Shown in pieces: positions 14,936 to 60,159 of a stretch of 64,000 bases of DNA; the stretch's first letter is position 1, and each line of letters starts with the position of its first letter. This DNA comes from Candidatus Delongbacteria bacterium (GTDB taxonomy: Bacteria; UBA4055). The notes under the pieces are model-generated. The model was not told the origin of the DNA. It saw nothing but the letters and a program-made list of their open reading frames with translations, and did not search any database. The position numbers were made by a program, and so were the translations under genes. Location of the stretch: assembly GCA_016937995.1 (NCBI GenBank), contig JAFGVM010000016.1, positions 124,001-188,000 of the forward strand, written 5' to 3'.

Positions 14936-15394
14936 TTATAATTTACTTCCCATTTTTTTGAATTCAATTAACTTTTGCTTCAGATCATCATTGTTCAATG
15001 CCAATATCTGAACTGCAGTTATTGCAGCGTTTCTTGCACCTGCGTTTCCTATTGCTAAAGTCGGAACAGGAACACCTGCAGGCATTTGTACCATAGATAG
15101 TAACGCATCCAGACCATCCATTGCACCACCCTTCATAGGAACACCAAGTACAGGTAAGACAGTATGGGCAGCAATAACTCCACCCAGATGAGCTGCCATT
15201 CCAGCTGCTGCAATTATTATTTTAACACCGTTCTTATCCGCGTTTTTTGAAAATTCACTCACTTCTTCAGGGTTTCTATGTGCTGACATTATTTTAACAT
15301 CATAACTGATACCGAAGTAATTCAAATATGTTTCACAGTTTTTCATAGTTTCAGCATCACTTTTGCTACCCATTACAATTACAACTTCAGACAT
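14936..15394 (-). CDS. purE: N5-carboxyaminoimidazole ribonucleotide mutase
   Basis: Purine biosynthesis step converting N5-CAIR to CAIR. At 152 residues it is normal for class I PurE. Motifs: VIVMGSKSDAETM, the MSAHRNPEEV loop carrying the catalytic His, AAAGMAAHLGGVIAAHT and VPVPTLAIGNAGARNAA. AAGGAG stands just before the ATG. No purK is visible in the window. It is the first gene of the minus-strand run to sppA. Confidence 0.95.
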   Translation of the reverse strand: MSEVVIVMGSKSDAETMKNCETYLNYFGISYDVKIMSAHRNPEEVSEFSKNADKNGVKIIIAAAGMAAHLGGVIAAHTVLPVLGVPMKGGAMDGLDALLSMVQMPAGVPVPTLAIGNAGARNAAITAVQILALNNDDLKQKLIEFKKMGSKL

Positions 15395-15629
15395 TTTTTC
15401 TCCTTAAATTAAAAAAAGATGTTTATTTCCCATATATTTCCGTTAATGGATCGGTCTATTTGTAATATGAAAAAGGAAAATAGCAAATAACGAACAAAAT
15501 CGCAATCTAATAACTTAATTAAATATTTAAAACCCAATAAAATATTTCTTGATTTCCTATAAAATAAATCATTAGTTTAGTACCTGTCGTATAAATACGA
15601 ATTTAAAGTGATCACATCAAGGAATAGCT

Positions 15630-18620
15630 ATGAGTAATACTTTTACAAAAAAAGATCAGGAAATTTTACTTAAACAGGATTTCATTGAAGAGCCTTTTAG
15701 TAAGCTAATGAAAAAAAGAATACACGAAATTCTGTTGATCTGCAGTAAATATGATAAATTCATGCTCGAAGAAGACGGAAGGATCGATGAACAAATATTC
15801 CAGGAGTATGTATCAATAAATCTGAGATATCCTCCTGTATTCACTCAGGTATCAAATCAAACTGAAGCATTTGAAAAACTGAAAGAAAAAGATTTTGATC
15901 TCATTATAACAATGGTTAATCTGGGTGATATTTTACCATTCGAACTCTCTGAAAAGATAAAAAAAGCTTACCCTGCAATTCCTATTGTCGTCCTTACACA
16001 TTTTTCACGAGAAGTCTCCAACTTTCTATACAACAAAGATCTATCTCACATTGATTATGTTTTTTCATGGCTGGGAGATTCAAGTATAATGCTTGCAATA
16101 ATAAAGTTAATAGAAGATTCAATGAATGTCGAGCATGACGTCAGGGAGGTTGGGGCGTATGCTATTATCCTTGTTGAAAATTCTATTCGATACTATTCAA
16201 GTTACTTACCCAGCATGTATAAAATCCTTTTCAATCAAACTCAAGCCTTGATGAAAGAGGGGTTAAATGAGCATCAGAAAACGATGAGAATGAGAGCACG
16301 CCCTAAAATAGTTCTTGCGAACAATTATGAAAAAGCAATCGAGCTTTATGAAAAATATAAAGAAAATATACTTGGTGTTATATCTGACATTTCTTACGAT
16401 ATAAATGGTAAAAATGACGATGAAGCTGGCTTGAAATTATGTAGATTTATCAGAAATGAAAATAAATATTTACCGATATTATTACAATCATCTCAATCAA
16501 GGCATAAAGATGAAACTGAATCAATGAATGCGGCCTTCATTAATAAAAATTCAAAAAATCTTTTGAATAAATTAAGAAAATATATCAGGACTAACTTTGG
16601 ATTTGGTGATTTTGTTTTTGTTGATCCCCAGACGAATGAAGAAATCGGTAAAGCATCAGACCTTCAAAGCTTACAGCATAAACTCGAAATAGTACCATTA
16701 AGCTCTTTTGAATACCATGCTGATAACAACCATTTCTCAAAGTGGTTCAAAGCAAGAGCGCTTTTTACTTTGGCAGACCTGATAAAGCATAAGAAGCAAA
16801 ATGATTTTAAAAGTGTTGAAGATACAAGAGATTTCGTAATCAATATTATTAAAAGTTACCGAATCAGCACAGGTAGAGGAACAATTGCAACTTTTGAAAA
16901 AGATAATTTTGACAACTATACCAGATTTGCCCGTATAGGTAAGGGTTCGTTGGGAGGTAAAGGCAGAGGTTTAGCCTTCATAGATTCATTTTTGAAAAGA
17001 AATAAAATGACATTTAAGTATGACAACCTTACGATCAGTGTACCTAAAACAATTATTATCTCCACTGATGTATTCGAAGAATTCATGGAACTGAACGACC
17101 TATATCCCATTGCATTATCCAATTCTTCTGATGAATGGATCCTGAAATTTTTTCTTTTGGGAGATATGCCGCCACACCTAAAAGAAAAATTACATTGCAT
17201 TTTATCTTACTTTAAAGATCCCCTGGCTATAAGATCATCCAGTTTGCTAGAGGATTCATATCATCAGCCTTTTGCAGGAGTATATTCAACTTACATGATC
17301 TCGAACAATAATGTAAATATTAATACTCGGGTCACTGAATTATGTCAGGCAATTAAATCTGTTTATGCCTCAACGTTTTTCAAGATCAGTAGAAATTATA
17401 TGGCTGCAACAAATAATTTGATCGATGAAGAAAAAATGTCCGTTATTATTCAAGAAATGAGTGGACAAAAATATGTTACAGATGAAAATTCTGAAAGATT
17501 CTATCCTTCATTATCGGGTGTTGCCAGATCTTTGAATTTTTATCCTATAGGTAAAGAAAAACCGAAAGAAGGTATAGTTAACATAGCTGTAGGATTAGGT
17601 AAAACTATTGTTGATGGAAATACTTCATTAAGATTCTCTCCTAAGTATCCAAAAAAAATACTACAATTATCAAATTCTGAAATGGCTTTAAGGAATACTC
17701 AGAAAAAATTTTATGCCCTGAATATGTCAAAACCTTTCATTCCTACTGTTAACGAAAGTGATAATCTTTCTTTATTGAAGATCAACGAGGCAGAAAAAGA
17801 TAAATCTTTAAAAATGATGGTTTCTACTTATGATGCCCAGAATGAAGTTCTCAGAGATGGGGATCAGGATACCGGAAAAAAAATTGTGACATTCGCACCT
17901 ATCCTGAAATATGGTATGATACCTTTGCCTGAAGTAATAAGAGATATTTTAGATCTGGGAGCAAAAGAAATGAATACTCCGGTAGAAATTGAATTTTCAA
18001 TGCAAATAAGTACTGACAAAGAAATTCCTCATAAATTTCATTTTTTACAGATCAGACCGATCGTTCAAGGACTTGAATTCAGTGACATCACTATATCTGA
18101 GGAAGAAATACAAAACTCGATCATATCTTCGAATTCTACTCTCGGGAACGGAACAATTGATGATATTACTGACATAGTTTACATAAAACCTGAAAAATTC
18201 GATCCTTCTAAAACAGAAGAGATTGCAAATACATTAGAAAAATTAAATGAAAAATTCATCAAAAAAGACAGGCATTTTATTTTAATTGGTCCCGGCAGAT
18301 GGGGTTCTTCTGACCCTTGGCTTGGTGTTCCAGTTAAATGGGCACAGATATCTAAGGCAAAGGTCATTGTGGAGCATGGATTAAAAAAGTTTCATATCGA
18401 TCCTAGTCAGGGATCTCATTTTTTCCAGAATATCACACATTTGAAAGTCATTTATATGACAATCAATCCTTATCTGAATGATGGGAGGATAGATATTGAG
18501 AAACTTAATTCTATAAAGAGTATTTATGAGAACGATCTTTTAAGACATATACGATTCGATAAAAAATTGTTTCTCAAAGCGAATGGTGCTACCGGAGAAG
18601 CGGTTGTTATCATTAAATAA
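15630..18620 (+). CDS. PPDK_N (PEP/pyruvate-binding ATP-grasp) protein with two N-terminal REC-like domains
   Basis: A 996-residue protein. Residues about 35-160 and 225-320 look like receiver-type alpha/beta domains (FDLIITMVNLGDILP; ILGVISDISYD ... LCRFIRNE), though typical phospho-acceptor motifs are imperfect. From about 430 the PPDK_N ATP-grasp domain begins (GKGSLGGKGRGLAF; LAIRSSSLLEDSYHQPFAG; IIQEMSGQ; VNIAVGLGKTIVDG). Near the end (about 885-930) there is a block GPGRWGSSDPWLGVPV ... SQGSHFFQN shared with the two paralogues at 19497 and 22681. The mobile phospho-His domain and PEP-binding barrel of true PEP synthase or PPDK are absent, so the reaction is unknown. The phosphoesterase gene follows 16 bases later. 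Confidence 0.8.
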   Translation: MSNTFTKKDQEILLKQDFIEEPFSKLMKKRIHEILLICSKYDKFMLEEDGRIDEQIFQEYVSINLRYPPVFTQVSNQTEAFEKLKEKDFDLIITMVNLGDILPFELSEKIKKAYPAIPIVVLTHFSREVSNFLYNKDLSHIDYVFSWLGDSSIMLAIIKLIEDSMNVEHDVREVGAYAIILVENSIRYYSSYLPSMYKILFNQTQALMKEGLNEHQKTMRMRARPKIVLANNYEKAIELYEKYKENILGVISDISYDINGKNDDEAGLKLCRFIRNENKYLPILLQSSQSRHKDETESMNAAFINKNSKNLLNKLRKYIRTNFGFGDFVFVDPQTNEEIGKASDLQSLQHKLEIVPLSSFEYHADNNHFSKWFKARALFTLADLIKHKKQNDFKSVEDTRDFVINIIKSYRISTGRGTIATFEKDNFDNYTRFARIGKGSLGGKGRGLAFIDSFLKRNKMTFKYDNLTISVPKTIIISTDVFEEFMELNDLYPIALSNSSDEWILKFFLLGDMPPHLKEKLHCILSYFKDPLAIRSSSLLEDSYHQPFAGVYSTYMISNNNVNINTRVTELCQAIKSVYASTFFKISRNYMAATNNLIDEEKMSVIIQEMSGQKYVTDENSERFYPSLSGVARSLNFYPIGKEKPKEGIVNIAVGLGKTIVDGNTSLRFSPKYPKKILQLSNSEMALRNTQKKFYALNMSKPFIPTVNESDNLSLLKINEAEKDKSLKMMVSTYDAQNEVLRDGDQDTGKKIVTFAPILKYGMIPLPEVIRDILDLGAKEMNTPVEIEFSMQISTDKEIPHKFHFLQIRPIVQGLEFSDITISEEEIQNSIISSNSTLGNGTIDDITDIVYIKPEKFDPSKTEEIANTLEKLNEKFIKKDRHFILIGPGRWGSSDPWLGVPVKWAQISKAKVIVEHGLKKFHIDPSQGSHFFQNITHLKVIYMTINPYLNDGRIDIEKLNSIKSIYENDLLRHIRFDKKLFLKANGATGEAVVIIK

Positions 18621-18636
18621 TTGTCAGGAGTTTTAA

Positions 18637-19488
18637 ATGACATTATGTTTTTTTGTTACTGATCTTCATGGTAGGAAAGAGCGTTATGAAAAATTTTTCT
18701 CTAAAATTTATTCAGAGAAACCTGATGTGGTTTTTTTAGGAGGAGATCTCTTTCCAAATTCATTCTCAAATGAATTTAAGAATAAAGATTTCCTTGGAGA
18801 TTTCTTAGTTGAAGAGCTAAAAAAAATAAAAAAGAATTTAGGTAAAAAATATCCCAGAATTTTTGTTATACTTGGGAATGACGATGGGCGATCTCAAGAA
18901 TCCGATATGATCAAATACGAAAATCAAGGAATATGGCAATATATTCATAATAAAAAGATCAGACTTAATGAATATTCCATTTACGGTTACTCATACATTC
19001 CACCAACTCCTTTCAGTTTGAAAGACTGGGAAAAATATGATGTCTCAAGATTTGTTGATATTGGCTGTGTCAGCCCTGAAGAGGGTTCAAGAACAATTGA
19101 AGTAAGTGATCATGAGAAAAAATATTCTACTATCAAAGATGACCTTAATGAATTATTTCAAGATGATGATCTAAGTAAAGCTGTTATTTTATTCCATTCA
19201 CCGCCTTATAAAACAAAACTCGACAGAGCTGATCTTGATGGAAAAATGGTCGATTTTGTTCCTTTGGATGTTCATGTCGGCAGTATTGCAATACAACGAT
19301 TTATAACAGACAGATCACCTTATTTAACACTTCATGGCCATATACATGAATCATCAAGATTGACCAATAGCTACCTTGATAATATTAACAATACTACAAT
19401 GCTAAATGCCGCACATGACGGCAATGAATTGTCTCTAATCAAATTTCAATTGGAAGACCTTACAACTATACAAAGAGAGATATTGTAA
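18637..19488 (+). CDS. Calcineurin-type metallophosphoesterase
   Basis: 283 residues with the complete dimetal phosphoesterase motif set: TDLHG (Asp9, His11), LGGDLF, LGNDDG, ILFHSPP and LHGHIHES. It should hydrolyse a phosphoester or phosphoanhydride; the substrate cannot be read from sequence. It sits 16 bases after the REC-PPDK_N gene with a GTCAGGAG ribosome site, so the two are probably one operon. A kinase-like and a phosphatase-like product made together suggests opposing activities. It converges with the minus-strand PPDK_N operon. Confidence 0.88.
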   Translation: MTLCFFVTDLHGRKERYEKFFSKIYSEKPDVVFLGGDLFPNSFSNEFKNKDFLGDFLVEELKKIKKNLGKKYPRIFVILGNDDGRSQESDMIKYENQGIWQYIHNKKIRLNEYSIYGYSYIPPTPFSLKDWEKYDVSRFVDIGCVSPEEGSRTIEVSDHEKKYSTIKDDLNELFQDDDLSKAVILFHSPPYKTKLDRADLDGKMVDFVPLDVHVGSIAIQRFITDRSPYLTLHGHIHESSRLTNSYLDNINNTTMLNAAHDGNELSLIKFQLEDLTTIQREIL

Positions 19489-19496
19489 AAGTATAA

Positions 19497-22400
19497 CTAC
19501 TTTTTATTAACAAATAGAGGTCTTGCTGCATCAGATACTGCTGATATCTTCATAGCATAGCTGCTCTTGGTCTTTATATCATCATTGTTAATTATGTGAA
19601 TATCCAGAATATTTTCCAGCTTATAACCTGTGTTTAAAAAATTGTAATAACCTAAACTCGTATTCCATGCATCAAGCCAGATCAATAAACCTTCTTTTTG
19701 AACCTTATTTCCAATAAAATGTATTAAAATATCAATATCGCTGTCAGGCCTTGAAGTAGCATTCTTAGCGCTACCGAAAATATACAGCTCTTTCACTCCA
19801 AACCTTTTTGCATCCAATGATTCGGCTATTTTTTCAACTGCTCTAAGTCTCCATTTCCAATGATAGTCATCTTTTTTATCTATGTTAATTTTGTTAACAT
19901 CCTTTGTTCGGAAATGATAATGCTCCCTTGAATTATATTCTTCATTAATATCTCGAATTAATGCTGTTGCTTTATCTGATTCAGCATTCATATATATCTG
20001 GATCTCTCTACCTTTAGTTACATTTTTGACATCAATTACTTTGATCACATTTGATAGATCTGAATATTTTGGTAATAGATCTTTAAAAATATTTGTACTC
20101 TCAGTGAAGAATTCCTCATTAAAAATAATATCACGATTGTCTGAATACAATGGTAAATACCTTATTCCCGACTCAACAAGATCAAGAAAAAAATGTGTTC
20201 CGAAGGAAAGGTCCGGAACGTAATCTTTATTCTTCTTAGCTATTTCTATTAACATGCTGGTGTTACTAATATCAGAGTATGAAACAGACACTCCTAATTT
20301 GATATCACCCCGACTTCCCCATCTTCCAGGACCCATTAGTATAAATTGTTTTTTTGGCAATATTTTATTTAACAACCCAATTGCCTTTCCAACATTTTTC
20401 ATCTCCTCCAATGAAGACAGATTGCTATATCCCACAGGATCTACATACACAACATGAGATATTCCTTGAACTAAACCATTCGAAATGAATTTATTCGCGG
20501 TAAATAATATCTCATTTTGTTTAATGTCTTCAGGACAGGTAATTGGTTTGGAATCATAACCCAGATTCTGAGGACGGCATTGTAATAAGTAAAGATCATC
20601 TCCATCATGTGCAAACTCAATATCAACCGGGTGTTCATATTTTTGTTTAAGTGTGTATAAAATATCGTTCATCTCTTTCATGAAAACCTGGTCTGATAAT
20701 AAACCATCAAATGTAACTGTAAAATTTTCTTTTTTGTAATCAGTTCCAAATTTTTTTGGAGGTAGCAGGTATTTCTCAGAAATTACAGAAACCAGCTTGT
20801 TGATTATAGGATAGTTCTTCCCACATTTTTTTATAAGTTCATCGATCTTTTTAGTCTCGAATTTTTTAGTTTTAAGATTTATAACGTCGATCTGTTTAGG
20901 AGAATAACGAATTTTTTCATCGATCGATACATTAACTCTGAGATCAGAATTCTTTGGTGATATAAGTATCGGGTAATCATCACTGGTCCTGTCAACAGCT
21001 CTTGTTCCCAATCCCGGAACTAATCTTATTAAACCATCTTCTCTTTTGATCCTGCTTGACCATCGATATTCATTATTGCTGAAAGCAACTCCTGCGAAAG
21101 CCGGGAAAAAATAATCCCCAACTTTTTTACCTACAACCTGCTGGATCATTATACCCATTTGTTCGTTGTAATCAAGCAGTTCGTGCTCAGCTCTGTATTG
21201 TATAGGGTCAGGTCCAAAAGTTGAAGCATATACTTCTGAGATTGCATCCATCAGATCGGTCATTCTTTTTTCTTTTGGTCCCTGATTGGCAACGAAAAGA
21301 CTTTTATATTTTCCGGCAAATGCAGTACCCATCCTATCCTCTAGTAAACTAGAGCTTCTTATTATAAGTGGAGTGTCCCCAAGATCATCAAGACACTTTG
21401 AGAGTTCTTTTATCATTTCTGAAGAGAAGGGAGAATTTTTAAAGACATGAATAACATATGGATACTCCTGTCGAACGAGACCTATATCCTTATATTTCTG
21501 CTCCATTATGTCTTCAAGGTTATTATATTTCATAAAATCAAGTATTCCATCAGCTGTTATATACCACGTTTTAGGGATTTTAAGGTTTTTAACCTTTTTA
21601 GCATTGTTCGAATCTTCTAACAGAATATGTGACGCCACGATAAGACCTGCACTTTTTCCACCAAGTTTTCCGAGACTGTGTTCAGGATGAATAAGATTAT
21701 TTGTTAATTTGTAAAATGAGTCCACATTCAGATGCTTTTTTGCAACATCAATAAAGGTTCTCTGATCAGACATGAATTTCCTTATCAAAGCTACAGTAAA
21801 ACTTTTCTGTCTTAATCCGGACAACTCCAAACCCTGCTCTGCAAGGAAATGATACTTCTCCAATGCACTAATGATCTCACTTACTGTAGTTGCATTATTA
21901 TTCAGTATATTCGCCATAAAAGCAGAACTTTCCTGCTTTATCCACTTATGCACATTTGTTAAGATTTCTTCCTCGGTCAAGTGTCTTTCGGCAACAGAAA
22001 ATACATCTGTCAAAGTCATCATAGAGTCAATGTCTTCTAAAGCTTTAAATGGGAAATTTTTTTCTTTAACACATTCATCAGGAATACTGAATTTTTCTAA
22101 AAGCGATTCGGCTTCTTTTACTCCGTATATACAAAGAAAATTTATCATTTTTCTTGTTATTTTGACAGCAAAACCTTTGTCAGTCCTTGTAAGAAGATCC
22201 AAAATGGATCTCCATTCACTTTGAGTTGAATTCTCTATATTCCCATGATTCCCAAAAACAGTTCTTAACTGCTGGTGAAGAACATATAGCTCAAACTGCT
22301 TTCCAATCGTCTCAATAAGTGTAAGTTCTTCATTGAGAAATGGTCCAATATCTGCTTGAGGTCTTTCTTCGATATAATAGATATTGATCTGCCCAGTCAC

Positions 22401-22673
22401 TTTTCCCTGAACAGTTATTTGTACCTCCTGCATCCAGGGAGTCTCTTCAAATTCTTCAATTTGGAAGATCTTATTTTTATATAGTAATTGTGCTTTACAT
22501 ATTTCCGGGAACTGCCACCCCATGGGAAGTATCGTTACAATGTTATAACATACTTCATCAAAGGAAAGTTCTCTATCATTTAATAAATTCTGGATCTCAT
22601 ACAAACATTTGGATTCTTTCGCACGTTCATTAAGATCATTTATTAGTCTGGAAAGCAATTTATCATTCTTCAT
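19497..22673 (-). CDS. GAF-like + PPDK_N ATP-grasp + nucleotidyltransferase fusion protein
   Basis: A 1058-residue multidomain protein. Residues about 20-140 look like a GAF-type sensor (LTLIETIGKQFELYV at its end). A helical region leads to PPDK_N from about residue 335 (LGKLGGKSAGLIVA; LIIRSSSLLEDRMGTAFAGKY; MIQQVVGKKVGDYF). The family block GPGRWGSRGD ... SFGTHFF follows at about 780-830. The C-terminus is a Pol-beta-type nucleotidyltransferase: Gly967-Ser968, then Asp979 and Asp981 in DSDIDIL, with a later Asp in LENILDIHII. No phospho-His domain is present. It is seven bases downstream of the shorter PPDK_N gene. The reaction is unknown; a sensor-controlled phospho- or nucleotidyl-transfer role is inferred. 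Confidence 0.8.
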   Translation of the reverse strand: MKNDKLLSRLINDLNERAKESKCLYEIQNLLNDRELSFDEVCYNIVTILPMGWQFPEICKAQLLYKNKIFQIEEFEETPWMQEVQITVQGKVTGQINIYYIEERPQADIGPFLNEELTLIETIGKQFELYVLHQQLRTVFGNHGNIENSTQSEWRSILDLLTRTDKGFAVKITRKMINFLCIYGVKEAESLLEKFSIPDECVKEKNFPFKALEDIDSMMTLTDVFSVAERHLTEEEILTNVHKWIKQESSAFMANILNNNATTVSEIISALEKYHFLAEQGLELSGLRQKSFTVALIRKFMSDQRTFIDVAKKHLNVDSFYKLTNNLIHPEHSLGKLGGKSAGLIVASHILLEDSNNAKKVKNLKIPKTWYITADGILDFMKYNNLEDIMEQKYKDIGLVRQEYPYVIHVFKNSPFSSEMIKELSKCLDDLGDTPLIIRSSSLLEDRMGTAFAGKYKSLFVANQGPKEKRMTDLMDAISEVYASTFGPDPIQYRAEHELLDYNEQMGIMIQQVVGKKVGDYFFPAFAGVAFSNNEYRWSSRIKREDGLIRLVPGLGTRAVDRTSDDYPILISPKNSDLRVNVSIDEKIRYSPKQIDVINLKTKKFETKKIDELIKKCGKNYPIINKLVSVISEKYLLPPKKFGTDYKKENFTVTFDGLLSDQVFMKEMNDILYTLKQKYEHPVDIEFAHDGDDLYLLQCRPQNLGYDSKPITCPEDIKQNEILFTANKFISNGLVQGISHVVYVDPVGYSNLSSLEEMKNVGKAIGLLNKILPKKQFILMGPGRWGSRGDIKLGVSVSYSDISNTSMLIEIAKKNKDYVPDLSFGTHFFLDLVESGIRYLPLYSDNRDIIFNEEFFTESTNIFKDLLPKYSDLSNVIKVIDVKNVTKGREIQIYMNAESDKATALIRDINEEYNSREHYHFRTKDVNKINIDKKDDYHWKWRLRAVEKIAESLDAKRFGVKELYIFGSAKNATSRPDSDIDILIHFIGNKVQKEGLLIWLDAWNTSLGYYNFLNTGYKLENILDIHIINNDDIKTKSSYAMKISAVSDAARPLFVNKK

Positions 22674-22680
22674 ATTACAC

Positions 22681-24408
22681 CTATTTTTTTATAACACCTG
22701 ATCTGCTTTTACCGTCAACAATCGTTTTTAATGCTTTATCATATCTTACATGTGAAACAAATTCCAAATCTGTTACATGGTCCAGCGAATTGATCCAATT
22801 CCAATCTGTCGGAAAATCATTCCTCAGAGGAAGATAAAAATATTGAATTTTAAAACTTGTCAGATTATGGAAAAAATGAGAACCCTGACTGAATTCAATA
22901 TTCATATTTTCTAGACTTGCTTCAACAATGATCGAAGCTCCTGATATCTGACTCCAGGTTACAGGTATACCCAACCAATGATCTGAACTTCCCCATCTAC
23001 CGTAACCAATTAAAAGATACGGCCTCTTTTCGCTTAGCAATTTCGAATTGATCTCTGCAATTTCTTTTGCGATCAATTCTGTCTTTGCAGGATCAAAAGT
23101 TTCATGTTTAACAAAAACAATATCCTTAATATTGTTGCTTATTCCATTCCCAAGAACATGCTCCGATGCAATTATAGTATCATTTGATGACAACTCTGAC
23201 CTTTCTAACCTTACATCAGTATCATTTACCACCATCTGCCTTACTTGTAGTAAACCGAATCTGTAGGGTTTCTCTGATGAACTGTCTTTGGAAAAAGTCA
23301 TAGCAAATTCTATCTCAACTGGAGAATCCATTTTTTCTTCACATACCTTCATCAGTTTTATTAATAGATCGTTAATGGGTATCAGTTCCAATGACAAAAT
23401 TGGGGCAAAATTGAGAACTCTGGCCCCGTCCCTTCCTGAGCCGATTGTCAATCTGTCTGTTGTATGATCATATGTGGAAACTAGATTTGAAAGTGTCTCA
23501 TCTTCTTCAGCAGAATGTATATTTTCGATCAGCATATATTCTGTTTCATTGATGGGATCATAAGCTGGAGGATCGCCCATATTCACAGACCAGAACTCAG
23601 TTTGAGTTAACTTCAACATTTCATTAACTGATCCGAAAGGGGGTTTTTTATGTGGATACTTAGGACAGTATATCCATGATAATCCTCCGTCTACAATAGT
23701 TTTTCCAAGTCCGAATGCCAAATTTACTACACCTTCTTCAGGTAAAGTTTCATTTATGGGATAATAGTTGTATGATTTACCTACACCCGACAAATTAGGA
23801 TAGAACTTATCTCCATATCTGTTTCCAATGATCTCCTGGATTATTACAGCCATCTTCTCTTTTCTAATCTCCAGACCTGATGCGGTAAAATATTCCTTTG
23901 CATCTTTGAAGAAAGTAGAGGCATATACATACTTGATCCCTTCGACCATCTTTGTGAATCTTGTATCTGAGTCGAACTGATTATTCGGTATCATTTTTGT
24001 CCCGTAGATCCCGGCAAAAGGTTTGTACTTTGCATCTTCCAGCATACTTGAAGATCTTATTGCAAGCGGAACATTCACTTTTGAAATTAATTCTCTCAGA
24101 TCACCCAGAACTGAAAAAGGAAGCGAAGCATTCTGGAATGCAATTGCAATTTCATCATCACTTTTATCAGAATATGCAATATCGTAGAGGTCGTTCTGTG
24201 TCATAAAGTCATCAAAAACACCTGTTCTCAACACAGTAAAATTAGGTATGTTGACCATAATTTCATCAAATTCAGAAAAATCACTTTCCTTCAATATATT
24301 ATCAAAATAAATTAAACTGCTTGCCTTTCCTCCAACTTCCCCTTCTCCAATGAATGAAATATTTTGTTCATCATCGAAAAATATTCTATTAAATTCATTT
24401 ATCTTCAT
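22681..24408 (-). CDS. Stand-alone PPDK_N (PEP/pyruvate-binding ATP-grasp) protein
   Basis: 575 residues, the shortest of the three paralogues and essentially the PPDK_N core. Visible motifs: GEGEVGGKASSLIYF near residue 23, LAIRSSSMLEDAKYKPFAGIYG, VIIQEIIGNRYGDKFYPNLSG, VNLAFGLGKTIVDGG, then GYGRWGSSDHWLGIPV ... SQGSHFFHNL near 480-520. It lacks both the His-swivel and PEP-barrel domains of PPDK. It is closest in sequence to the 15630 protein (for example FYPxLSG ... YPI, LGKTIVDG, CPKYP versus SPKYP). It lies 18 bases downstream of the 428-residue dehydrogenase gene and 7 bases upstream of the GAF fusion, so these three genes look like an operon. Confidence 0.82.
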   Translation of the reverse strand: MKINEFNRIFFDDEQNISFIGEGEVGGKASSLIYFDNILKESDFSEFDEIMVNIPNFTVLRTGVFDDFMTQNDLYDIAYSDKSDDEIAIAFQNASLPFSVLGDLRELISKVNVPLAIRSSSMLEDAKYKPFAGIYGTKMIPNNQFDSDTRFTKMVEGIKYVYASTFFKDAKEYFTASGLEIRKEKMAVIIQEIIGNRYGDKFYPNLSGVGKSYNYYPINETLPEEGVVNLAFGLGKTIVDGGLSWIYCPKYPHKKPPFGSVNEMLKLTQTEFWSVNMGDPPAYDPINETEYMLIENIHSAEEDETLSNLVSTYDHTTDRLTIGSGRDGARVLNFAPILSLELIPINDLLIKLMKVCEEKMDSPVEIEFAMTFSKDSSSEKPYRFGLLQVRQMVVNDTDVRLERSELSSNDTIIASEHVLGNGISNNIKDIVFVKHETFDPAKTELIAKEIAEINSKLLSEKRPYLLIGYGRWGSSDHWLGIPVTWSQISGASIIVEASLENMNIEFSQGSHFFHNLTSFKIQYFYLPLRNDFPTDWNWINSLDHVTDLEFVSHVRYDKALKTIVDGKSRSGVIKK

Positions 24409-24426
24409 TATTATCCCATGTTGTTG

Positions 24427-25713
24427 TTAGACCCATCCACGAGCTTTACATGCATCCACTACTTTCTCTATAGCCATTATATTTGCAGATACTCTCATTG
24501 TCATACTGTTCTTAGTCGAAAACTGGTAAACTGAATTGAATGCATATGTCATTTTCTGATCCAATTTCCCCAAGACTTCATCTTTCGTCCAGAAGTAGTT
24601 CATATTACATTGTACCTGCTCAAAATAACTGCAGATAACACCGCCTGCATTAGCCAGAAAATCAGGAATTAAAAAGATATCCTTACTCTCAATTATTTTA
24701 TCCGCTTCCGGAGTGGTCGGTCCGTTTGCTCCTTCAGCTATTATTTTAACTTTTGATGATATATTTTCCACATTCTCTTCAGTGATCTGATTTTCTATTG
24801 CTGCCGGTATTAAGATATCGACTTCCTGGAAGAGCCATTGATCACCATCCAGGATATCATACCCCAACTCTTTTGCTCTGGCTTTATCTATACCGCCAAA
24901 TTGATCTGTAATGTTTTTCAGCTCTGTTAAATTAACACCACTTTCTTTTTTAAATGAGAAACTTTTTTCATCTTTCTGATCCCAACATGATACACAGATA
25001 ACTTTACCACCCATTTGAGTATAAAGCTCGATCGCATACTGACTTACATTTCCAAATCCCTGAATACTCATTGTTGTGTCTTTTGCTTTTAAACTTAACT
25101 TTTTCAAAGCTTCTCTTATGGTAATGATCACACCATAACCTGTTGCCTCAGTTCTGCCTAATGACCCACCCATTCCTACAGGTTTTCCGGTTATGAATCC
25201 CGGCTGTTTCTTTCCTGTTATTATTTCATACTCATCCAGCATCCACAACATATGCTGGGGATTTGTCATTACATCAGGTGCTGGAATATCAGTGAAAGGT
25301 CCTACATTTTTATAAATTTGTCGAACCCAACCTCTACAAATTTGTTCCTGCTCCCTTTTGGTTAAGTTATGTGGATCACAGATCACACCACCTTTACCTC
25401 CTCCCAGAGGAATATCAGCAACTGATGTTTTCCAAGTCATCCACATTGATAAAGCTCTTACAGTATCAATTGTTTCCTGAGGATGAAACCTTATTCCTCC
25501 TTTTGCAGGACCTCTTGCATCGTTGTGAATACATCTGAAACCCCGGAAAACTTTTTTACTTCCATCATCCATAGTAATAGGAATGCTGAAATGGAATTCT
25601 TTCATCGGGGTTCTCAATAAATCACGGGTTGCTTCATCTAATTCCAGCATTTCAGCTGCAGAATCAAATTGTTTTTTTGCCATTTCAAATGCATTGAATG
25701 ATTTTTTTTCCAT
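24427..25713 (-). CDS. Glu/Leu/Phe/Val dehydrogenase (glutamate dehydrogenase, NAD type likely)
   Basis: 428 residues of the Glu/Leu/Phe/Val dehydrogenase family, which interconvert glutamate and 2-oxoglutarate plus ammonia. The substrate site shows GPAKGGIRFHP and DIPLGGGKGGVICDP; the Rossmann part has SIQGFGNVSQYAIEL; FLANAGGVICSYFE is near the end. The sequence type (PAPDVMT; TEATGYGV) resembles catabolic NAD-linked or dual-cofactor enzymes rather than GdhA at 25872. AAGGAG precedes the ATG at good spacing. It leads the operon containing two PPDK_N genes. Confidence 0.9.
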   Translation of the reverse strand: MEKKSFNAFEMAKKQFDSAAEMLELDEATRDLLRTPMKEFHFSIPITMDDGSKKVFRGFRCIHNDARGPAKGGIRFHPQETIDTVRALSMWMTWKTSVADIPLGGGKGGVICDPHNLTKREQEQICRGWVRQIYKNVGPFTDIPAPDVMTNPQHMLWMLDEYEIITGKKQPGFITGKPVGMGGSLGRTEATGYGVIITIREALKKLSLKAKDTTMSIQGFGNVSQYAIELYTQMGGKVICVSCWDQKDEKSFSFKKESGVNLTELKNITDQFGGIDKARAKELGYDILDGDQWLFQEVDILIPAAIENQITEENVENISSKVKIIAEGANGPTTPEADKIIESKDIFLIPDFLANAGGVICSYFEQVQCNMNYFWTKDEVLGKLDQKMTYAFNSVYQFSTKNSMTMRVSANIMAIEKVVDACKARGWV

Positions 25714-25826
25714 AGCAGTTCTCCTTCAAGAGTGTACGTTCAATGTATATAACTTAAGGTAGTTTTTAAAGTTTCAGGTAGAAATATTTTATCTAAAATA
25801 ATTGTCATTTTTATTTAATTAGACAG

Positions 25827-25851
25827 AAAAGGCTCCACTAGGGAGCCTTTT
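25827..25851 (-). terminator. Terminator after gdhA
   Basis: AAAAGGCTCC and GGAGCCTTTT form a perfect 10-bp stem around a five-base loop, 21 bases past the gdhA stop. Read on the minus strand it runs into TTTTCTGTCT. Confidence 0.8.
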
Positions 25852-25871
25852 GATGATTGATCAGATTATCT

Positions 25872-27212
25872 CTAGTATCCCTGATCGATCATAGCATCGG
25901 CTACTTTTTTGAATCCTGCAATATTTGAACCTTTAACATAGTTAACAAATCCATCAGCTTGTGTACCATATTTAACACCCGCAGCATGAATTGAGCTCAT
26001 GATCCATTTAAGTTTCTCATCAACCTCTTCCTTGATCCACGATAGTTTCATTGAATTTTGTGACATTTCAAGACCAGATACTGCAACTCCACCTGCGTTT
26101 GCAGCTTTGCCTGGACCGAAAGCAATTTTGTTTGCAATAAAATAGTTTACCGCATCTGCTGTACAACCCATATTTGATGTTTCTATCACATACTTACAGC
26201 CATTATCTACAAGATTTTTTGCATCTTCATCATTAAGTTCATTCTGAATAGCACACGGGTATGCCATATCAACCTTGACCTTCCACGGTTTTTCACCAGG
26301 AAAGAATTTTGCATTCGGGAATTTTTCCGCATAAGGAGCAACTACATCATTATTAGAAGCTCTCAATTCAAGCAGATAATTAAATTTTTCTTCAGTGTTC
26401 ACACCATCTTCATCGAGTATGTATCCATCAGGTCCTGAAATTGTAAGAACTTTTGCTCCAAGTTCTGTAGCTTTTATTGCACATCCCCATGTTACGTTAC
26501 CGAATCCTGAAAGAGAAACTGTTTTACCTTCCATTGTCTCATTTTTATGTTTAAGCATTTGATCTGCATAATAAACTGCTCCGAATCCAGTAGCCTCAGG
26601 TCTTATCAATGATCCACCCCAGTTCAATCCTTTGCCTGTTAGAACACCGGTATTTTCCGAACGAAGTCTTTTGTATTGTCCGTACATAAAACCTATCTCT
26701 CTTCCACCAACACCGATATCACCGGCAGGTACATCAGTTTGAGGACCAATATATTTTTGAAGTTCAGTCATAAAAGAACGGCAAAATCTCATTATCTCAT
26801 TGTCAGATTTACCTTTTGGATTAAAATCTGAACCACCTTTACCACCACCCATAGGTAAAGTTGTAAGACTGTTCTTGAATATTTGTTCGAATCCCAAGAA
26901 TTTTAATCCACCTAAAGTAACACTCGGATGAAATCTCAGTCCACCCTTATAAGGTCCGATAGCATTATTAAATTGTACTCTGTAACCTTTGTTGACCTGA
27001 ATGTCACCGTTATCATCTTCCCATTCCACTTTGAACAGAAAAGCTCTGTCAGGTTCAGTTATTCTGTCAAGTATCTTGGCCTGAAGATAAGAGGGGTTTT
27101 CGTTGACCATGTCAATGACTGATTCGATCACTTCTCTTGCTGCCTGGATGAATTCTGGTTGAGCGGGGTTTCTCCTCTCAAGCTCAGCCATGAACTTGTC
27201 GATGTTATACAT
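25872..27212 (-). CDS. gdhA: Glutamate dehydrogenase, NADP-type hexameric
   Basis: 446 residues, the standard length for bacterial NADP-specific GdhA, which assimilates ammonia into glutamate. Motifs: YRVQFNNAIGPYKGGLRFHP, TLPMGGGKGGSDFDP-like loop (here SDFNPKG), GPQTDVPAGDIGVGGREIGFM and SLSGFGNVTWGCAIKA in the coenzyme domain. It has its own promoter and terminator, so it is a separate unit from the paralogue at 24427. Two glutamate dehydrogenase types side by side suggest separate assimilatory and catabolic roles; that division is inferred. Confidence 0.94.
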   Translation of the reverse strand: MYNIDKFMAELERRNPAQPEFIQAAREVIESVIDMVNENPSYLQAKILDRITEPDRAFLFKVEWEDDNGDIQVNKGYRVQFNNAIGPYKGGLRFHPSVTLGGLKFLGFEQIFKNSLTTLPMGGGKGGSDFNPKGKSDNEIMRFCRSFMTELQKYIGPQTDVPAGDIGVGGREIGFMYGQYKRLRSENTGVLTGKGLNWGGSLIRPEATGFGAVYYADQMLKHKNETMEGKTVSLSGFGNVTWGCAIKATELGAKVLTISGPDGYILDEDGVNTEEKFNYLLELRASNNDVVAPYAEKFPNAKFFPGEKPWKVKVDMAYPCAIQNELNDEDAKNLVDNGCKYVIETSNMGCTADAVNYFIANKIAFGPGKAANAGGVAVSGLEMSQNSMKLSWIKEEVDEKLKWIMSSIHAAGVKYGTQADGFVNYVKGSNIAGFKKVADAMIDQGY

Positions 27213-27280
27213 TTTGATGCCTCACAATTAATTTTTTTTTGTTGTTGCATTTTTTTTGCAACGTTATTATAACATCGCTG

Positions 27281-27309
27281 AATTTATTTAGCGTATTAAA
27301 TGTTGTCAA
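27281..27309 (-). promoter_or_regulatory. gdhA promoter with a leader hairpin downstream
   Basis: On the minus strand TTGACA (27304-27309), a 17-base spacer and TAAATT (27281-27286). The roughly 60-base leader contains GTTGCA and TGCAAC arms around a T-rich loop (about 27244-27262), which could be a small regulatory stem. Confidence 0.65.
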
Positions 27310-27388
27310 GATATATTTTATGAATTGTTTACATGTAAAATCTGTAAAAGATTTTATCCGGATCGATCTAACACGGATGAGTTATGTT

Positions 27389-28516
27389 TTAAATTGTATC
27401 TTTTGTTAGAATATTTATTAGTTTTTCAGCTGCGGCTATTGGTGATATCTTACTTTCTATCACATCCTTTTTAACTGAACTTAAAACCTGTTGCACTTCA
27501 GTAGAATTATAAAATATATTTTCAAGTGTTTGTGTGATCGTGGTTTTCAACCATTGTTCAAGCTGATATTTCCGTTTATTTTGAAATTTTCCATTTGAAT
27601 TCATTATACTATGATGCTTTATGATGATCTTCCATAATTCATCAATTCCTTTATTTTCGTAGGAAGAGATCGCTATAACAGGAACCTGCCAGTCAGGATC
27701 AAAGTTAAGAGAATAGTGAGTTGCGTTCTCAAGTTCTTGTTTACAGAGATCAGCTTTGATCACATTGTCACCGTCAGACTTTGAAACAGCTATCGCATCT
27801 GCCATTTCCATAATACCTTTCTTTATCCCCTGAAGTTCATCTCCAGCTCCGGCAATTTGCAGTAAAAGAAAAAAATCCACCATCGAATGAACCAGGACTT
27901 CAGACTGTCCCACACCTACAGTTTCAACAAGTATGATATCATAACCGGCTGCTTCACATAGTATTATAGCCTCTCTTGTGGCTCTGTTCACACCCCCTAA
28001 AAAACCTGAGGTTGCTGAAGGACGGATGAAAACATCATTCTTACTGGAAAGTTTATCCATTCTTGTTTTATCACCCATCAGACTACCTCCTGAAAGGTTA
28101 CTGCTTGGATCAACTGCCATTACAGCTACTTTTTTCTTCTGTTCAAGAAGATAAAGTCCGAAAGTTTCGATAAAAGTACTTTTACCTACACCTGGAATAC
28201 CGGTAATACCAATCCTGATAGATTTGCCTGAATATGGTAAACATCTGTTTATAATTTTTTTTGAAAGGTCGTTATCTTCTTTCTTCTTACTCTCGATAAG
28301 GGTTAGAGCTCTTCCCAAAATTACTCTATCACCATTCAATATACCTGTCAGGAAGTCTTCGAGATCTATCTTGCGTTTTTTTTTACTTATAAAGATATCC
28401 AGTTTATCATCGGAAATACCTTCAGGTTTAACTATACCTGCATTAATATTTAATGATGTAAGTTTATCATTTGCCAGTTGATCTATTGATCTGCCGGTCT
28501 TATTTTTGTTGCTCAT
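27389..28516 (-). CDS. meaB: MeaB/ArgK-type P-loop GTPase (methylmalonyl-CoA mutase chaperone)
   Basis: 375-residue G3E-family GTPase that normally loads and protects cobalamin-dependent acyl-CoA mutases. Motifs: Walker A GIPGVGKST (about 107-115), DPSSNLSGGSLMGDKTRM, FIRPSATSGFLGGV, ILVETVGVGQSE (Walker B/switch) and AVSKSDGDN (base recognition). ATG 28516 is preferred over the GTG one codon upstream. The first 17 bases overlap the end of the histidine kinase gene. No mutase gene lies in this window, so the partner must be elsewhere. Confidence 0.9.
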   Translation of the reverse strand: MSNKNKTGRSIDQLANDKLTSLNINAGIVKPEGISDDKLDIFISKKKRKIDLEDFLTGILNGDRVILGRALTLIESKKKEDNDLSKKIINRCLPYSGKSIRIGITGIPGVGKSTFIETFGLYLLEQKKKVAVMAVDPSSNLSGGSLMGDKTRMDKLSSKNDVFIRPSATSGFLGGVNRATREAIILCEAAGYDIILVETVGVGQSEVLVHSMVDFFLLLQIAGAGDELQGIKKGIMEMADAIAVSKSDGDNVIKADLCKQELENATHYSLNFDPDWQVPVIAISSYENKGIDELWKIIIKHHSIMNSNGKFQNKRKYQLEQWLKTTITQTLENIFYNSTEVQQVLSSVKKDVIESKISPIAAAEKLINILTKDTI

Positions 28517-31145
28517 CACTGTCTTCTTTTAAAGTATCCTTTATATTTTTGGCTATGTCCCGGATATTATAAGGCTTTTTCAGGTACTTTTTTACTCCCA
28601 GCTTCATTGCCTTTTTTACTCTGTCACTCTCCGAATAACCACTTACTATTATTACTTTCTGCTTAGGTCTGACCTTGATCATTTCCTTATAAACATCATA
28701 ACCATCCTTATCTTCTCCAAGGATCATATCAAGAAGCACGATATCAGGATCAAAAGATTCTAGGATCGAATTTATATTCTCAACATCACTTGTACCTTCA
28801 ACATCATAATTTATTTCAGAAAGAAGTGATTTAGCAATGTCTAACTGAACTTCCTCGTCATCGATCACAAGTATTTTTTCTCCATTTCCTTCAATTGATG
28901 TGTTATCTGTTAAGATATCCTCAATATATGTGGTCCCTGCGAGAGCTGGAAAGTAAAGATCGAAGGTCGTTCCAGTTCCGACTTTACTTGTAAGTTCAAT
29001 AAATCCGTCATGATCTTTTACAGTACCCCATACTACCGCCATCCCAAGTCCAGTTCCGCTCCTTCCCATTGACTTACTTGTAAAGAACGGTTCAAATATT
29101 CTTTTCTGATCCTCTTTGGAAATACCTACACCTTCATCAGTTACAGAAAGAACTGCATAATCCCCTTCAGGTATATTAGAAAATCTTAATGATTTATTTT
29201 TTGAACTTTCAAATTTTGTTGAAATGAAAATTTCCCCACCGCTCATCATAGATTCAGCTGCATTTGTTATAAGGTTAACTAAAACTTTTGAAATTTGGAA
29301 TTCCGCACCGGATATACTTGGGGTCGTATCATCCTCTGAAAATCTTAATCTTATGTTTGAATGATATATCTGCAGTTTTTCTATTTCCGGTGATTCAAGT
29401 ACGTCTTTTACAACTTTGTTAACATTCACCGGTGCGAACTTGTTTACACCACGTCTTGATAAGGATAGAAGGTCCTCAACTATTGAAGCTGCTTTCTCCC
29501 CACTTTTCTTTATCGCCTGAACTTTCTTTCTCAAAGGATCTTCGCTGTCCATTTTCAACATCAGCAGGTCAGGATAAGCAACTATCCCTGTTAAAACATT
29601 ATTCAGATCATGTGCAACTCCACCTGCAAGCCTTCCCAATGCTTCCATTTTTTCACCCTGCGACAATCTGTCTTCCAATGTCCTGTTACGTTCAGTTGTT
29701 AGTATAAAGCTTGTAATATCTCTCCAAACACCTACAAATCCTATAACTTCACCATCCTCTTCAAGTAAAGGATTAATCTTTGCTTCAGCCCATTTTCTTG
29801 TATTATCCTTACATATCAATTGAGCATTGAATATTATCGGGAAATTCACAGAGTTGAAATTATAATTGATCCTTCTTTTAAGTTTTGATATTTTATCCAT
29901 GGCATCAGGACTCAAATATTCATTCTGTTTCAACTTTAAGAATTCATCAGGATCGTATCCCATGAACTGTCCTATAGACCTGGTTATAAAATTGATATTA
30001 AATTCCTTATCAGAGGTCCAGATAGCATCGGAAACATTTGTTATCAGCAACCTGTATTTCTTCTCACTTTCCTTTAGTTCGTTCTCTATCGATATTTTAT
30101 CTGTAATATCGGTACTTATTGCTACAATTCCTGCAGGTTTTTTGTGATCATTATATATTAACTTACATCTGGATGATGCTACCCTTTTCTTCCCGTTAGG
30201 TAAAACACCTGTAACTATCCCTTCCCATTTTCCTTCCCTGTTAACAGCTTCTATCAATTCTTTTTTTGATATGCTGTCTTCAGATGACTGCTTAATTGAT
30301 TCAGTTCTGCCAACGAGATCTTTTCTATCTAATCCAGTATGTTCAAGAACTGCTTTGTTAACATAAAGTATCTTTCCATTTATATCAGTTATCAGGACTT
30401 CATCTGAAATATTATACATCACATCACTTTGGAATTTAAGATATCTTTCATTTCTTCTTCTTTTGGTAATATCTCTGAAAACCCCAAGGAAACTGATCTT
30501 TTTTTCACCCTCAGTAATTCCAACTGTCTTCAACTCGACCCAGATTTTATGCTTGTCCTTTCTTTTAAGCTCCATTTCGTATGTATTTACGTCTTTGAAC
30601 TTTTCAGGTTCCTGCTTCCTGAAGATGATATCCTTGGCAACAGTTCTCATAGATCTCTTTGAAAGAAATTTTTCTATCTTGGTATTTATGAATTCTTCAG
30701 GTGTATATCCAAGATAATCTTCAATTGAAGGCGTTATATACGTAATTTTACCATTCATATCCAGAGTTACAATTACATCGCTAACATTATCAGTTATCAG
30801 TTGATACTTTTTATTTACATCTACACATTCATCATTTTTCTCTTGAAGCTCTCCATTTATCTTCTTTAGATCAGCTTGAAATTTTCTGATCTTATAAATA
30901 GTATAAAAAATTATTCCACCTGATATCATCAGCAGGTTTACAAAAGCCAATAATATAAGTATCGGGTAGGTTTCTGGTGTATTCTTAATTTGCGGTGAAT
31001 CCTGAGCAAGTTCGAGTAAAATATTCCTGTATTGTAAATAATTCACGTACATGACGATGCTTATCATGGATGAGAGCAATATACTAAGAATTATATAATA
31101 TTTAGGTTCCCAGGAAAATTTCTTTTTCTTGAATCTGTTGTCCAA
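28500..31145 (-). CDS. Membrane-bound hybrid histidine kinase with three PAS domains and a C-terminal receiver
   Basis: 881 residues. Two transmembrane helices (about 17-38 and 62-84) bracket a short periplasmic loop. Three PAS domains with PAC-type ends follow (about 110-230, 235-355, 360-485; GVFRDITKRR, AISTDITDK, GVWRDITSF). Then come a dimerisation/H box with His512 (GVAHDLNNVLTG), an ATPase domain (VLVNLITNAAE, DEGVGIS, SGTGLGMAVV) and a receiver with phospho-acceptor Asp806 (IVLLDM). No output domain is present, so signals should pass to another protein. The start is a TTG directly after an in-frame TGA; the next ATG would cut into the first membrane helix. It overlaps meaB. Confidence 0.92.
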   Translation of the reverse strand: MDNRFKKKKFSWEPKYYIILSILLSSMISIVMYVNYLQYRNILLELAQDSPQIKNTPETYPILILLAFVNLLMISGGIIFYTIYKIRKFQADLKKINGELQEKNDECVDVNKKYQLITDNVSDVIVTLDMNGKITYITPSIEDYLGYTPEEFINTKIEKFLSKRSMRTVAKDIIFRKQEPEKFKDVNTYEMELKRKDKHKIWVELKTVGITEGEKKISFLGVFRDITKRRRNERYLKFQSDVMYNISDEVLITDINGKILYVNKAVLEHTGLDRKDLVGRTESIKQSSEDSISKKELIEAVNREGKWEGIVTGVLPNGKKRVASSRCKLIYNDHKKPAGIVAISTDITDKISIENELKESEKKYRLLITNVSDAIWTSDKEFNINFITRSIGQFMGYDPDEFLKLKQNEYLSPDAMDKISKLKRRINYNFNSVNFPIIFNAQLICKDNTRKWAEAKINPLLEEDGEVIGFVGVWRDITSFILTTERNRTLEDRLSQGEKMEALGRLAGGVAHDLNNVLTGIVAYPDLLMLKMDSEDPLRKKVQAIKKSGEKAASIVEDLLSLSRRGVNKFAPVNVNKVVKDVLESPEIEKLQIYHSNIRLRFSEDDTTPSISGAEFQISKVLVNLITNAAESMMSGGEIFISTKFESSKNKSLRFSNIPEGDYAVLSVTDEGVGISKEDQKRIFEPFFTSKSMGRSGTGLGMAVVWGTVKDHDGFIELTSKVGTGTTFDLYFPALAGTTYIEDILTDNTSIEGNGEKILVIDDEEVQLDIAKSLLSEINYDVEGTSDVENINSILESFDPDIVLLDMILGEDKDGYDVYKEMIKVRPKQKVIIVSGYSESDRVKKAMKLGVKKYLKKPYNIRDIAKNIKDTLKEDSDEQQK

Positions 31146-35269: not shown

Positions 35270-36047
35270 AAACGATACCGACCGCATGAGAATATTCTAG
35301 ATCGAAATGATATGAAATCGCATAGGAGAACTGGTATTTTAAATATCTGATCGCAAAACCCGAATTAACACACTTAGGTTCAAAATTGTATCCCGCTGAC
35401 AGAACAAAAGCATCAATTGGTTTATAGCTTATACCGGTCTTTATATTAGCTTTATACCTGTCATCTTTCTCCAGACCCAGATAAACATCTAGCGTATTCA
35501 AAGATCTGTAATGAAAATTCAGGAACATTTCCATTGGTATATCTATATTATCATTTTCGTAAGCATAAAGGTTTTTTATTGAACATATGACTTCCAGATC
35601 ATCAACTATTTTATAAAAAGCAGTTAGATCAACTCCTGCGGTATAACTATTTTTAAACTCAGTATGCAGATAGAAAAGCGATATTCCCGGACTTATCGTT
35701 AGATCATCAGTATGAAAAATTGATGAGGAAAGCTGAAGAGTATTTTCTCTGTAGGTACTGTTCCCGAAATTAATGACTCTGATATAAGAATTCTTACCTA
35801 GTACTTTAGTTTGAAATGCAACATCCTCACGGGAGAATTCAGTGATACCGTAAGGGTGAAGAAAATTTAGGGATAGATATTTTTTGTCTGTATTTAAAGC
35901 AGGTATGGTTGTATCACCTGTTTGGAATCCCGAGACATTCCCTGAAGCGATCGTTTGAGGAGATATTATAATATTTTCTAATGAAGCGAAAATATTTCCT
36001 GCAAAGATCATTAACGACATATAAAATAATATCTTCCTCAATATCAT
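35259..36047 (-). CDS. Predicted outer-membrane protein of PorV/UPF0164-like appearance
   Basis: 262 residues with a signal peptide (cleavage near NIFA-SL) and a beta-rich body. The N-terminal part of the mature protein (ASGNVSGFQTGD) and the end (YHFDLEYSHAVGIVYE) recall PorV/PorQ and UPF0164 barrels of FCB-group bacteria, but the match is weak. Its ATG overlaps the xerC stop codon by four bases, and its 3' end overlaps the HHH-barrel gene, so xerC, this gene and the barrel gene are a tight operon. Confidence 0.6.
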   Translation of the reverse strand: MILRKILFYMSLMIFAGNIFASLENIIISPQTIASGNVSGFQTGDTTIPALNTDKKYLSLNFLHPYGITEFSREDVAFQTKVLGKNSYIRVINFGNSTYRENTLQLSSSIFHTDDLTISPGISLFYLHTEFKNSYTAGVDLTAFYKIVDDLEVICSIKNLYAYENDNIDIPMEMFLNFHYRSLNTLDVYLGLEKDDRYKANIKTGISYKPIDAFVLSAGYNFEPKCVNSGFAIRYLKYQFSYAISYHFDLEYSHAVGIVYEI

Positions 36048-36943
36048 TCCCCTTTCGGATGTGCTTTTTTATATACTGCTTTCAATCTTTCCAGTGAGAC
36101 ATGAGTATATACCTGTGTCGTTGACAGACTTTCATGCCCTAGAAGCTCTTTAACTGTCATAATATCAGCTCCCTGATCAAGCATATGCGTCGCAAAAGTA
36201 TGTCGTAAAATATGAGGTGATGTCTTATTCACTGTTGCCAGTCTTTTCAGTTTATCTCTGACGATCCTCTGTATCTGTCTTTTTGACAGGTGTTTTCCAT
36301 TTTGCGAAATAAACAGATAATCGGTCTCATTTTCATTCTCAGATAAAATATCTTTTCTGAATGACAGATATATTCTGTATTTCCTTTTTATATGATCAGA
36401 AACAGGCAGTATTCTCTGCTTGGAACCCTTTCCAAATACAGATATAGTACCTTTTGTGTGATTTATCGTGTAAACTGTCATATCATAAAGTTCACTGAGA
36501 CGGATCCCTGTACCATAAAAAAATTCAAATATCAGACTTTCCCTTGCTGAGAAGAAATCTCCCTCATCAAAGCTTTCCATAATATTTTTCATCTGCACTG
36601 TACTTACGAATTCAGGCAATCTTTGCTCAGTTCTGATAGAATTTATCGTAGAACCAACATCTTTTTCAATAATATTATTTCTGAACAGGTAATTGAAAAA
36701 GCTTTTGAATGAGGCGATCCTTCTGTTGTAGGTTTTCTTTGAAAGTTTTTTTAATACCATATCTCTCAGATATGGCCTGATCTTTTCCTTTGTGATCTCT
36801 TTAATGTTCAGATCAACCTCAGATCTTTTGTAAATGTATTCATAAAGGTCCAACAGATCAGTTCTGTAACCTTTTATAGTATTTTGAGAATAATTTCTTT
36901 CGTTATTCAAATATTTTAAGAACTCTTCAATAAGATCTTTCAT
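36044..36943 (-). CDS. xerC: Site-specific tyrosine recombinase, XerC-like
   Basis: 299-residue phage-integrase-family recombinase used in chromosome dimer resolution. The N-terminal SAM-like DNA-binding domain (EFLKYLNNERNYSQNTIKGY) precedes the catalytic domain with YGTGIRLSEL (first Arg), HILRHTFATHML (His, Arg), LLGHESLSTTQVYTHV (His and nucleophile Tyr). A second Xer gene lies at 48437. I call this one XerC-like because HTFATHMLD and LLGHESLS are nearer that branch; the assignment is not firm. It is the first gene of a three-gene overlap group. Confidence 0.88.
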   Translation of the reverse strand: MKDLIEEFLKYLNNERNYSQNTIKGYRTDLLDLYEYIYKRSEVDLNIKEITKEKIRPYLRDMVLKKLSKKTYNRRIASFKSFFNYLFRNNIIEKDVGSTINSIRTEQRLPEFVSTVQMKNIMESFDEGDFFSARESLIFEFFYGTGIRLSELYDMTVYTINHTKGTISVFGKGSKQRILPVSDHIKRKYRIYLSFRKDILSENENETDYLFISQNGKHLSKRQIQRIVRDKLKRLATVNKTSPHILRHTFATHMLDQGADIMTVKELLGHESLSTTQVYTHVSLERLKAVYKKAHPKGE

Positions 36944-60145: not shown

Positions 60146-60159
60146 AAAAAAGGAGTATT

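Follow-up and report, generated by a model that had tools for sequence, protein, structure and literature searches.

Divergent dikinase-like ATP-grasp proteins are encoded beside glutamate dehydrogenase and may act as its regulators

The proteins described here are most readily compared with two groups of enzymes in which an ATP-grasp domain works together with a swivelling phosphohistidine domain. In the dikinases PpsA and PPDK the PPDK_N-type ATP-grasp domain is followed directly by the swivelling domain, and these enzymes also contain a PEP/pyruvate-binding barrel. Rifampin phosphotransferase (RPH), HpeHI, PpsAB and CreHI use the same ATP-grasp and swivelling-histidine mechanism in the absence of the PEP barrel, and possess a domain for their aromatic substrates. 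The canonical signature containing the catalytic histidine of the phosphohistidine domain is T/SxxGGxxxH (PMC12167813).

The family analysed in this study resembles PpsA and PPDK in that a PPDK_N domain leads directly, and in the same order, into what is probably a swivelling-type domain with an invariant histidine, but differs from these dikinases in lacking the PEP/pyruvate barrel, in having a His domain that is invisible by sequence, in carrying extra REC-like or nucleotidyltransferase parts and in forming a separate clade. The absence of the barrel is shared with the second group, of which RPH and HpeI provide the closest solved ATP-grasp structures; the family, however, contains no aromatic-substrate domain and displays SxG[ST]HFF in place of the canonical T/SxxGGxxxH. 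The principal new result is that the family is partnered with glutamate dehydrogenase (GDH), a connection that the original prediction overlooked. Each of the parts belongs to a known kind, but neither the way they are combined, nor the hidden His domain, nor the GDH partnership is described in the open-licence PMC literature searched, which yielded no comparable bacterial GDH kinase and no mention of the family's pairing with GDH genes.

Architecture of a Candidatus Delongbacteria locus

The window is a 64,000-nucleotide stretch of Candidatus Delongbacteria DNA (contig JAFGVM010000016.1). As originally predicted, it contains open reading frames for three PPDK_N proteins, at 15630, 19497 and 22681, which are designated A, B and C and match PF01326 (Pfam) with E values of 3e-38, 4e-58 and 1e-32, respectively. 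The features of the locus are as follows.

15630-18620, + strand: A (996 aa), two REC-like domains, ATP-grasp domain and divergent His domain
15717-16124 (approximate limits), + strand: A, REC1 (PF00072, 4.8e-10, residues 70-127)
16293-16664 (approximate limits), + strand: A, REC2 (conservation; PF00072 match in the paralogue L002, residues 213-299)
16947-18068, + strand: A, ATP-grasp (PPDK_N) domain, residues 440-813 (PF01326, 2.7e-38)
18078-18617, + strand: A, C-terminal swivelling-phosphohistidine-like domain, residues 817-996 (AF2 model and VIA rows)
18417-18419, + strand: A, codon of His930 in SQGSHFF, predicted phosphohistidine (invariant, 58/58)
18637-19488, + strand: calcineurin-like phosphoesterase (PF00149, 1.9e-11), 16 bp after A
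19497-22673, - strand: B (1058 aa), sensor-like N-terminus, ATP-grasp domain, His-like domain and nucleotidyltransferase
19674-19835 (approximate), - strand: B, nucleotidyltransferase domain (PF01909, 9.7e-07)
19929-20552, - strand: B, C-terminal His-like domain (His827 codon, 20193-20195)
20559-21668, - strand: B, ATP-grasp domain, residues 336-705 (PF01326, 4.4e-58)
22681-24408, - strand: C (575 aa), ATP-grasp and His-like domain only (His511 codon, 22876-22878)
24427-25713, - strand: GDH type T1 (archaeal/Bacillus-type), 18 bp upstream of C
25872-27212, - strand: GDH type T2 (family I; C. symbiosum/E. coli GdhA-type), the type that pairs with A

Read leftwards on the minus strand, gdhT2, gdhT1, C and B succeed one another with gaps of 158, 18 and 7 bp, and gdhT1, C and B constitute one operon (gdh-C-B), while A and the phosphoesterase run toward this array from the opposite side. 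The two GDH genes, 158 bp apart at 24427-27212, are a tandem of different types. Adjacent to them, at 27389-31145, are genes for a MeaB-type GTPase and then a PAS-PAS-PAS histidine kinase that has a receiver at its C-terminus; this pair also accompanies gdhT2 in L011, a Delongbacteria relative, and follows A in L032. No Rfam elements were found in 15000-28600. A search of the whole genome revealed a total of four such proteins and one normal PPDK, the fourth member being the A-like paralogue L002 on contig C16, outside the window.

The proteins had been described as coupled to REC-like, GAF and nucleotidyltransferase parts and to a phosphoesterase. The receiver (PF00072, 5e-10), nucleotidyltransferase (PF01909, 1e-6) and phosphoesterase (PF00149, 2e-11) were all recovered, the nucleotidyltransferase domain of B being present also in the relatives L066 and L067, but the GAF domain attributed to B had no Pfam match. 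The phosphoesterase was rejected as a general partner, as its gene adjoins the family only in Delongbacteria and in a single further GTDB family. The predicted ATP-grasp signatures (RSSSLLED/RSSSMLED and GGKG, GGKS or GGKA) were all found, and the GGK, RSS, ExE and QxR motifs of the family are invariant or nearly so and align with PpsA; PPDK uses the same residues (the GGK lysine, the RSS arginine, ExE and QxR). The reported absence of the PEP/pyruvate-binding barrel also held, as no Pfam match to it was obtained in A, B or C. Both A and C stop after the His-like domain, and B continues only into the nucleotidyltransferase.

To delineate the wider family, we searched 386 sampled genomes with a profile built on the C-terminal domain; members were identified in 83 of these, representing 53 GTDB families. 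Relatives occur in Candidatus Delongbacteria, which supply the nearest, Spirochaetota, Lentisphaerota (Victivallales) and Bacteroidota, and an A-type query matched in 257 of 295 Bacteroidales genomes. In a tree of the ATP-grasp domain the family forms one clade, which a long branch separates from PpsA/PPDK. The tree divides a B group from an A/C group, with C, in effect A without the REC part, nested in A. Eight GTDB families have C next to B at a distance of ~2.6-2.7 kb, and a further three have A next to B. A short B-like subgroup of 830-880 aa without the nucleotidyltransferase was also observed (L077 9501-12080, L076, L080, L136, L140 and L143), some members of which adjoin a T2, not a T1, GDH.

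The C-terminal domain and its invariant histidine

The original prediction drew attention to a private block near the C-terminus, GxGRWGS followed by SQGSHFF or SFGTHFF, whose histidine could stand in for the phosphohistidine of a missing swivelling domain. The block is present in A, B and C and its conservation is far above chance. In an alignment of this region the histidine is invariant in 58/58 relatives, and so are S926, G928, R890, G889, G892 and E915 (A numbering), such that the residue is surrounded by a serine at -4, a glycine at -2, a GxGRxG core and one glutamate. With respect to sequence profiles the His domain does appear to be missing, as had been proposed. Thus, PF00391 (PEP-utilizers His domain) was unmatched in A, B and C at E 0.1 (Pfam), the C-terminal domain exhibited no profile similarity to PF00391 (hhalign probability 0.3), the C-terminal portion aligned by hhalign with the full core was not meaningful, and the sequence profile of the domain yielded only chance matches in the PDB.

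The predicted fold, however, suggests that the domain is probably not absent. A model of C (AF2 from 31 sequences; mean pLDDT 83) was aligned by VIA-align to PpsA (2ols residues 4-465; Z 26.1, 365 residues) and to PPDK (1dik 3-505; Z 18.7), and both alignments extend through the His domains of these enzymes in the same domain order. When the C-terminal 180 residues of A were folded alone (AF2; pLDDT 91.4), the top eight VIA rows against the PDB were all phosphohistidine-type domains, comprising PPDK 375-509, RPH 755-866 and the extra C-terminal domain of pyruvate kinase, at Z 6.3-6.7 over 103-121 residues, although it should be emphasized that Z values of 6-7 also occur between unrelated common folds. 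Many of the lower rows (chaperonin apical domain, aconitase domain 4, LD-carboxypeptidase, PA domain and DRTGG) are what we take to be other domains of the general swivelling beta/beta/alpha fold, and Foldseek with the isolated domain returned nothing below 0.001. In the model of the A domain the histidine starts the helix that follows the central strand, and the order of the elements is as expected. On the basis of these models the swivelling His domain is probably present in the family but extremely diverged, and A, B and C would probably each end in a hidden, very altered phosphate-carrying domain.

The suggestion that the invariant histidine replaces the missing phosphohistidine is supported by the fold of the isolated domain, by the domain order of PpsA/PPDK and by the lack of a free-standing His domain. 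In this genome PF00391 is restricted to PPDK, PTS enzyme I and pyruvate kinase, and a free-standing His-domain partner was rejected on this basis; no separate phosphohistidine domain that might always be paired with the family is visible beyond these three proteins. It could be argued that the histidine is structural, and that the three proteins control GDH by binding to it as ATP/AMP sensors or assembly factors, with no phosphotransfer involved. GDHs are classically under nucleotide control, and the size of the proteins, their sensor-like N-termini, the lack of a substrate domain and the departure of the swivel motif from the canonical one are all consistent with such a role. The family, however, has retained the catalytic-type ATP-grasp residues and the histidine in their entirety despite great divergence, and we consider this explanation unlikely.

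Linkage to glutamate dehydrogenase

Of 42 loci whose neighbouring genes were clustered, 21 had GDH next to the family member. When GDH was searched for as PF00208 in the same genomes, with linkage defined as a GDH domain no more than 8 kb away, it was found to be linked to at least 84 of 136 family members, in at least 48 of 83 genomes and at least 32 of 53 GTDB families, compared with a chance expectation of ~1.3 genomes. As a control, none of 92 PF00391 genes lay within 8 kb of GDH, among the GDH matches listed. The remaining 21 of the 53 GTDB families had no GDH neighbour among the matches listed, some of the contigs being short. In the loci that were fetched, the median gap between the kinase gene and the nearest GDH gene is 104 bp. 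The position of the family beside GDH, far above chance, indicates that it probably switches GDH on or off. Given this partner, the phospho-transfer pathway not named in standard metabolism that had been suggested is less likely than the control of a known enzyme.

The linked GDHs are of two types, T1 resembling the archaeal and Bacillus enzymes and T2 those of Clostridium symbiosum and E. coli (GdhA). Where A occurs without B nearby the ratio of T2 to T1 is 17:3, and for B it is 4:17 (Fisher p 3e-5, with GTDB families as units, of which the unit 'Spirochaetota' pools several loci, and with one or two of the exceptions being cut loci). In four genomes (G184, G222, G251 and G351) the two kinds of locus coexist, and each is accompanied by its own type of GDH. 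The pairing is thus type-specific, A with the E. coli-type GdhA and B (with or without C) with the archaeal/Bacillus-type GDH. In the close relative L011, which has the same flanking genes, gdhT2 is located 60 bp after A and the phosphoesterase-B-C-gdhT1 block is absent, indicating that gdhT1-C-B travels as a unit and that A belongs to gdhT2.

An alternative interpretation of this linkage is that the proteins act as dikinases on a small molecule of glutamate or nitrogen metabolism (ATP + X -> AMP + X-P + Pi), sharing the pathway of GDH and leaving the GDH protein untouched. The characterized relatives PpsA, PPDK, RPH and HpeHI all phosphorylate small molecules (PMC12167813), and a shared pathway would fit the linkage to GDH. 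There is, however, no room for a substrate domain, as the ATP-grasp match of A extends to residue 813 and the His-like domain begins at 817, with no acceptor-substrate domain between them. In addition, pairing that is specific to the GDH type would be odd for a shared metabolite pathway, and the title of a 1996 study discussed below (pmid 8955404) concerns GdhA activity itself. This interpretation appears fairly unlikely.

A proposed mechanism and the Bacteroidales loci

The proposal that we favour, and to which we assign an even chance, is that A, B and C serve as dedicated GDH regulators, in which phosphate passes from the ATP-grasp domain to the histidine of the swivel, and the swivel then acts on the neighbouring GDH. 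The family would have originated from the ATP-grasp and swivelling-His half of a PEP-synthase/PPDK-type dikinase. ATP would be bound by the ATP-grasp domain and its phosphate moved to the invariant histidine on the C-terminal swivelling domain and, the PEP/pyruvate barrel having been lost, the phosphorylated swivel would act instead on the adjacently encoded GDH, A on the E. coli-type enzyme and the C+B pair on the archaeal/Bacillus-type enzyme. Family members would thus be phosphorylated on histidine, GDH would be the phosphate acceptor and the effect on GDH would be activation. Timing is probably governed by the N-terminal domains, REC-like and other, with the REC pair of A, and the N-terminus and nucleotidyltransferase of B, representing putative tuning parts.

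The REC domains of A raise the possibility of a different route, in which the phosphohistidine feeds Asp253 of REC2 in cis and the phosphorylated receiver, the product of a dikinase-driven His-to-Asp relay, controls GDH. D253, a serine and K306 of REC2 are kept across the A clade, and Pfam detects a receiver at the REC2 position in the paralogue L002. The position of the phospho-acceptor aspartate is, however, not conserved in REC1, the classic acidic pair is absent from REC2, and no receiver domains were found in B or C. We regard such a relay as very improbable.

Regulation of GDH by the family may bear on an old observation. According to the title of Baggio & Morrison (1996), GdhA activity in B. 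thetaiotaomicron is dependent on trans-acting gene(s), not named there, that lie downstream of gdhA (pmid 8955404, cited in PMC4539542). In two Bacteroides-type genomes (L154 and L155) an A-type gene lies just downstream of, and convergent with, a GdhA gene; the L155 copy has a length of 3.0 kb and is separated from its GdhA gene by 91 bp. In the 1996 experiments a 3-kb downstream segment on a second plasmid reportedly restored GdhA activity in E. coli. The position of the gene in L154 and L155 offers a lead that the trans-acting gene(s) may correspond to the A-type gene, and the GdhA gene of L155 is itself a candidate for identity with B. thetaiotaomicron gdhA. In Parabacteroides distasonis the A-type protein WP_041525632.1 (49% identical), labelled at NCBI by domain name only ('PEP/pyruvate-binding domain-containing protein'), is encoded divergently from an annotated NADP-GDH gene (gdhA). 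GDH was searched for in 50 Bacteroidales genomes and lies within 8 kb of A in 20 of them (counted by eye).

GDH stands at the junction of carbon and nitrogen metabolism. A widespread and conserved family of uncharacterized function is here tied to this enzyme by gene order and by partner type, and the dependence of GdhA activity on a downstream gene gains a concrete candidate. Dikinase chemistry, so far that of small molecules, might be extended towards protein regulation. The broadest form of the proposal is that these dikinase halves are a new bacterial class of protein kinase or enzyme-modifying regulator that phosphorylates GDH by way of the swivelling phosphohistidine, with a version for each GDH type, is nearly universal in Bacteroidales and is the trans-acting factor of B. 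thetaiotaomicron; this we advance tentatively, as rather doubtful in its entirety.

A reading of the locus as a defence system was rejected, as PADLOC gave no match to A or C, and B and the phosphoesterase matched just generic nucleotidyltransferase and phosphoesterase candidate models. Elsewhere in the window PADLOC identified an AbiEii toxin/AbiEi antitoxin pair (type IV toxin-antitoxin) at 60875-62354 on the minus strand (E 8e-110 and 3e-59), which is adjoined by a lone small DnaB_C/RecA-like ATPase of 247 aa (60109-60852). Two XerC/D-like tyrosine recombinases, both 299 aa long and recognized by eye, are encoded at 36044-36943 and 48437-49336.
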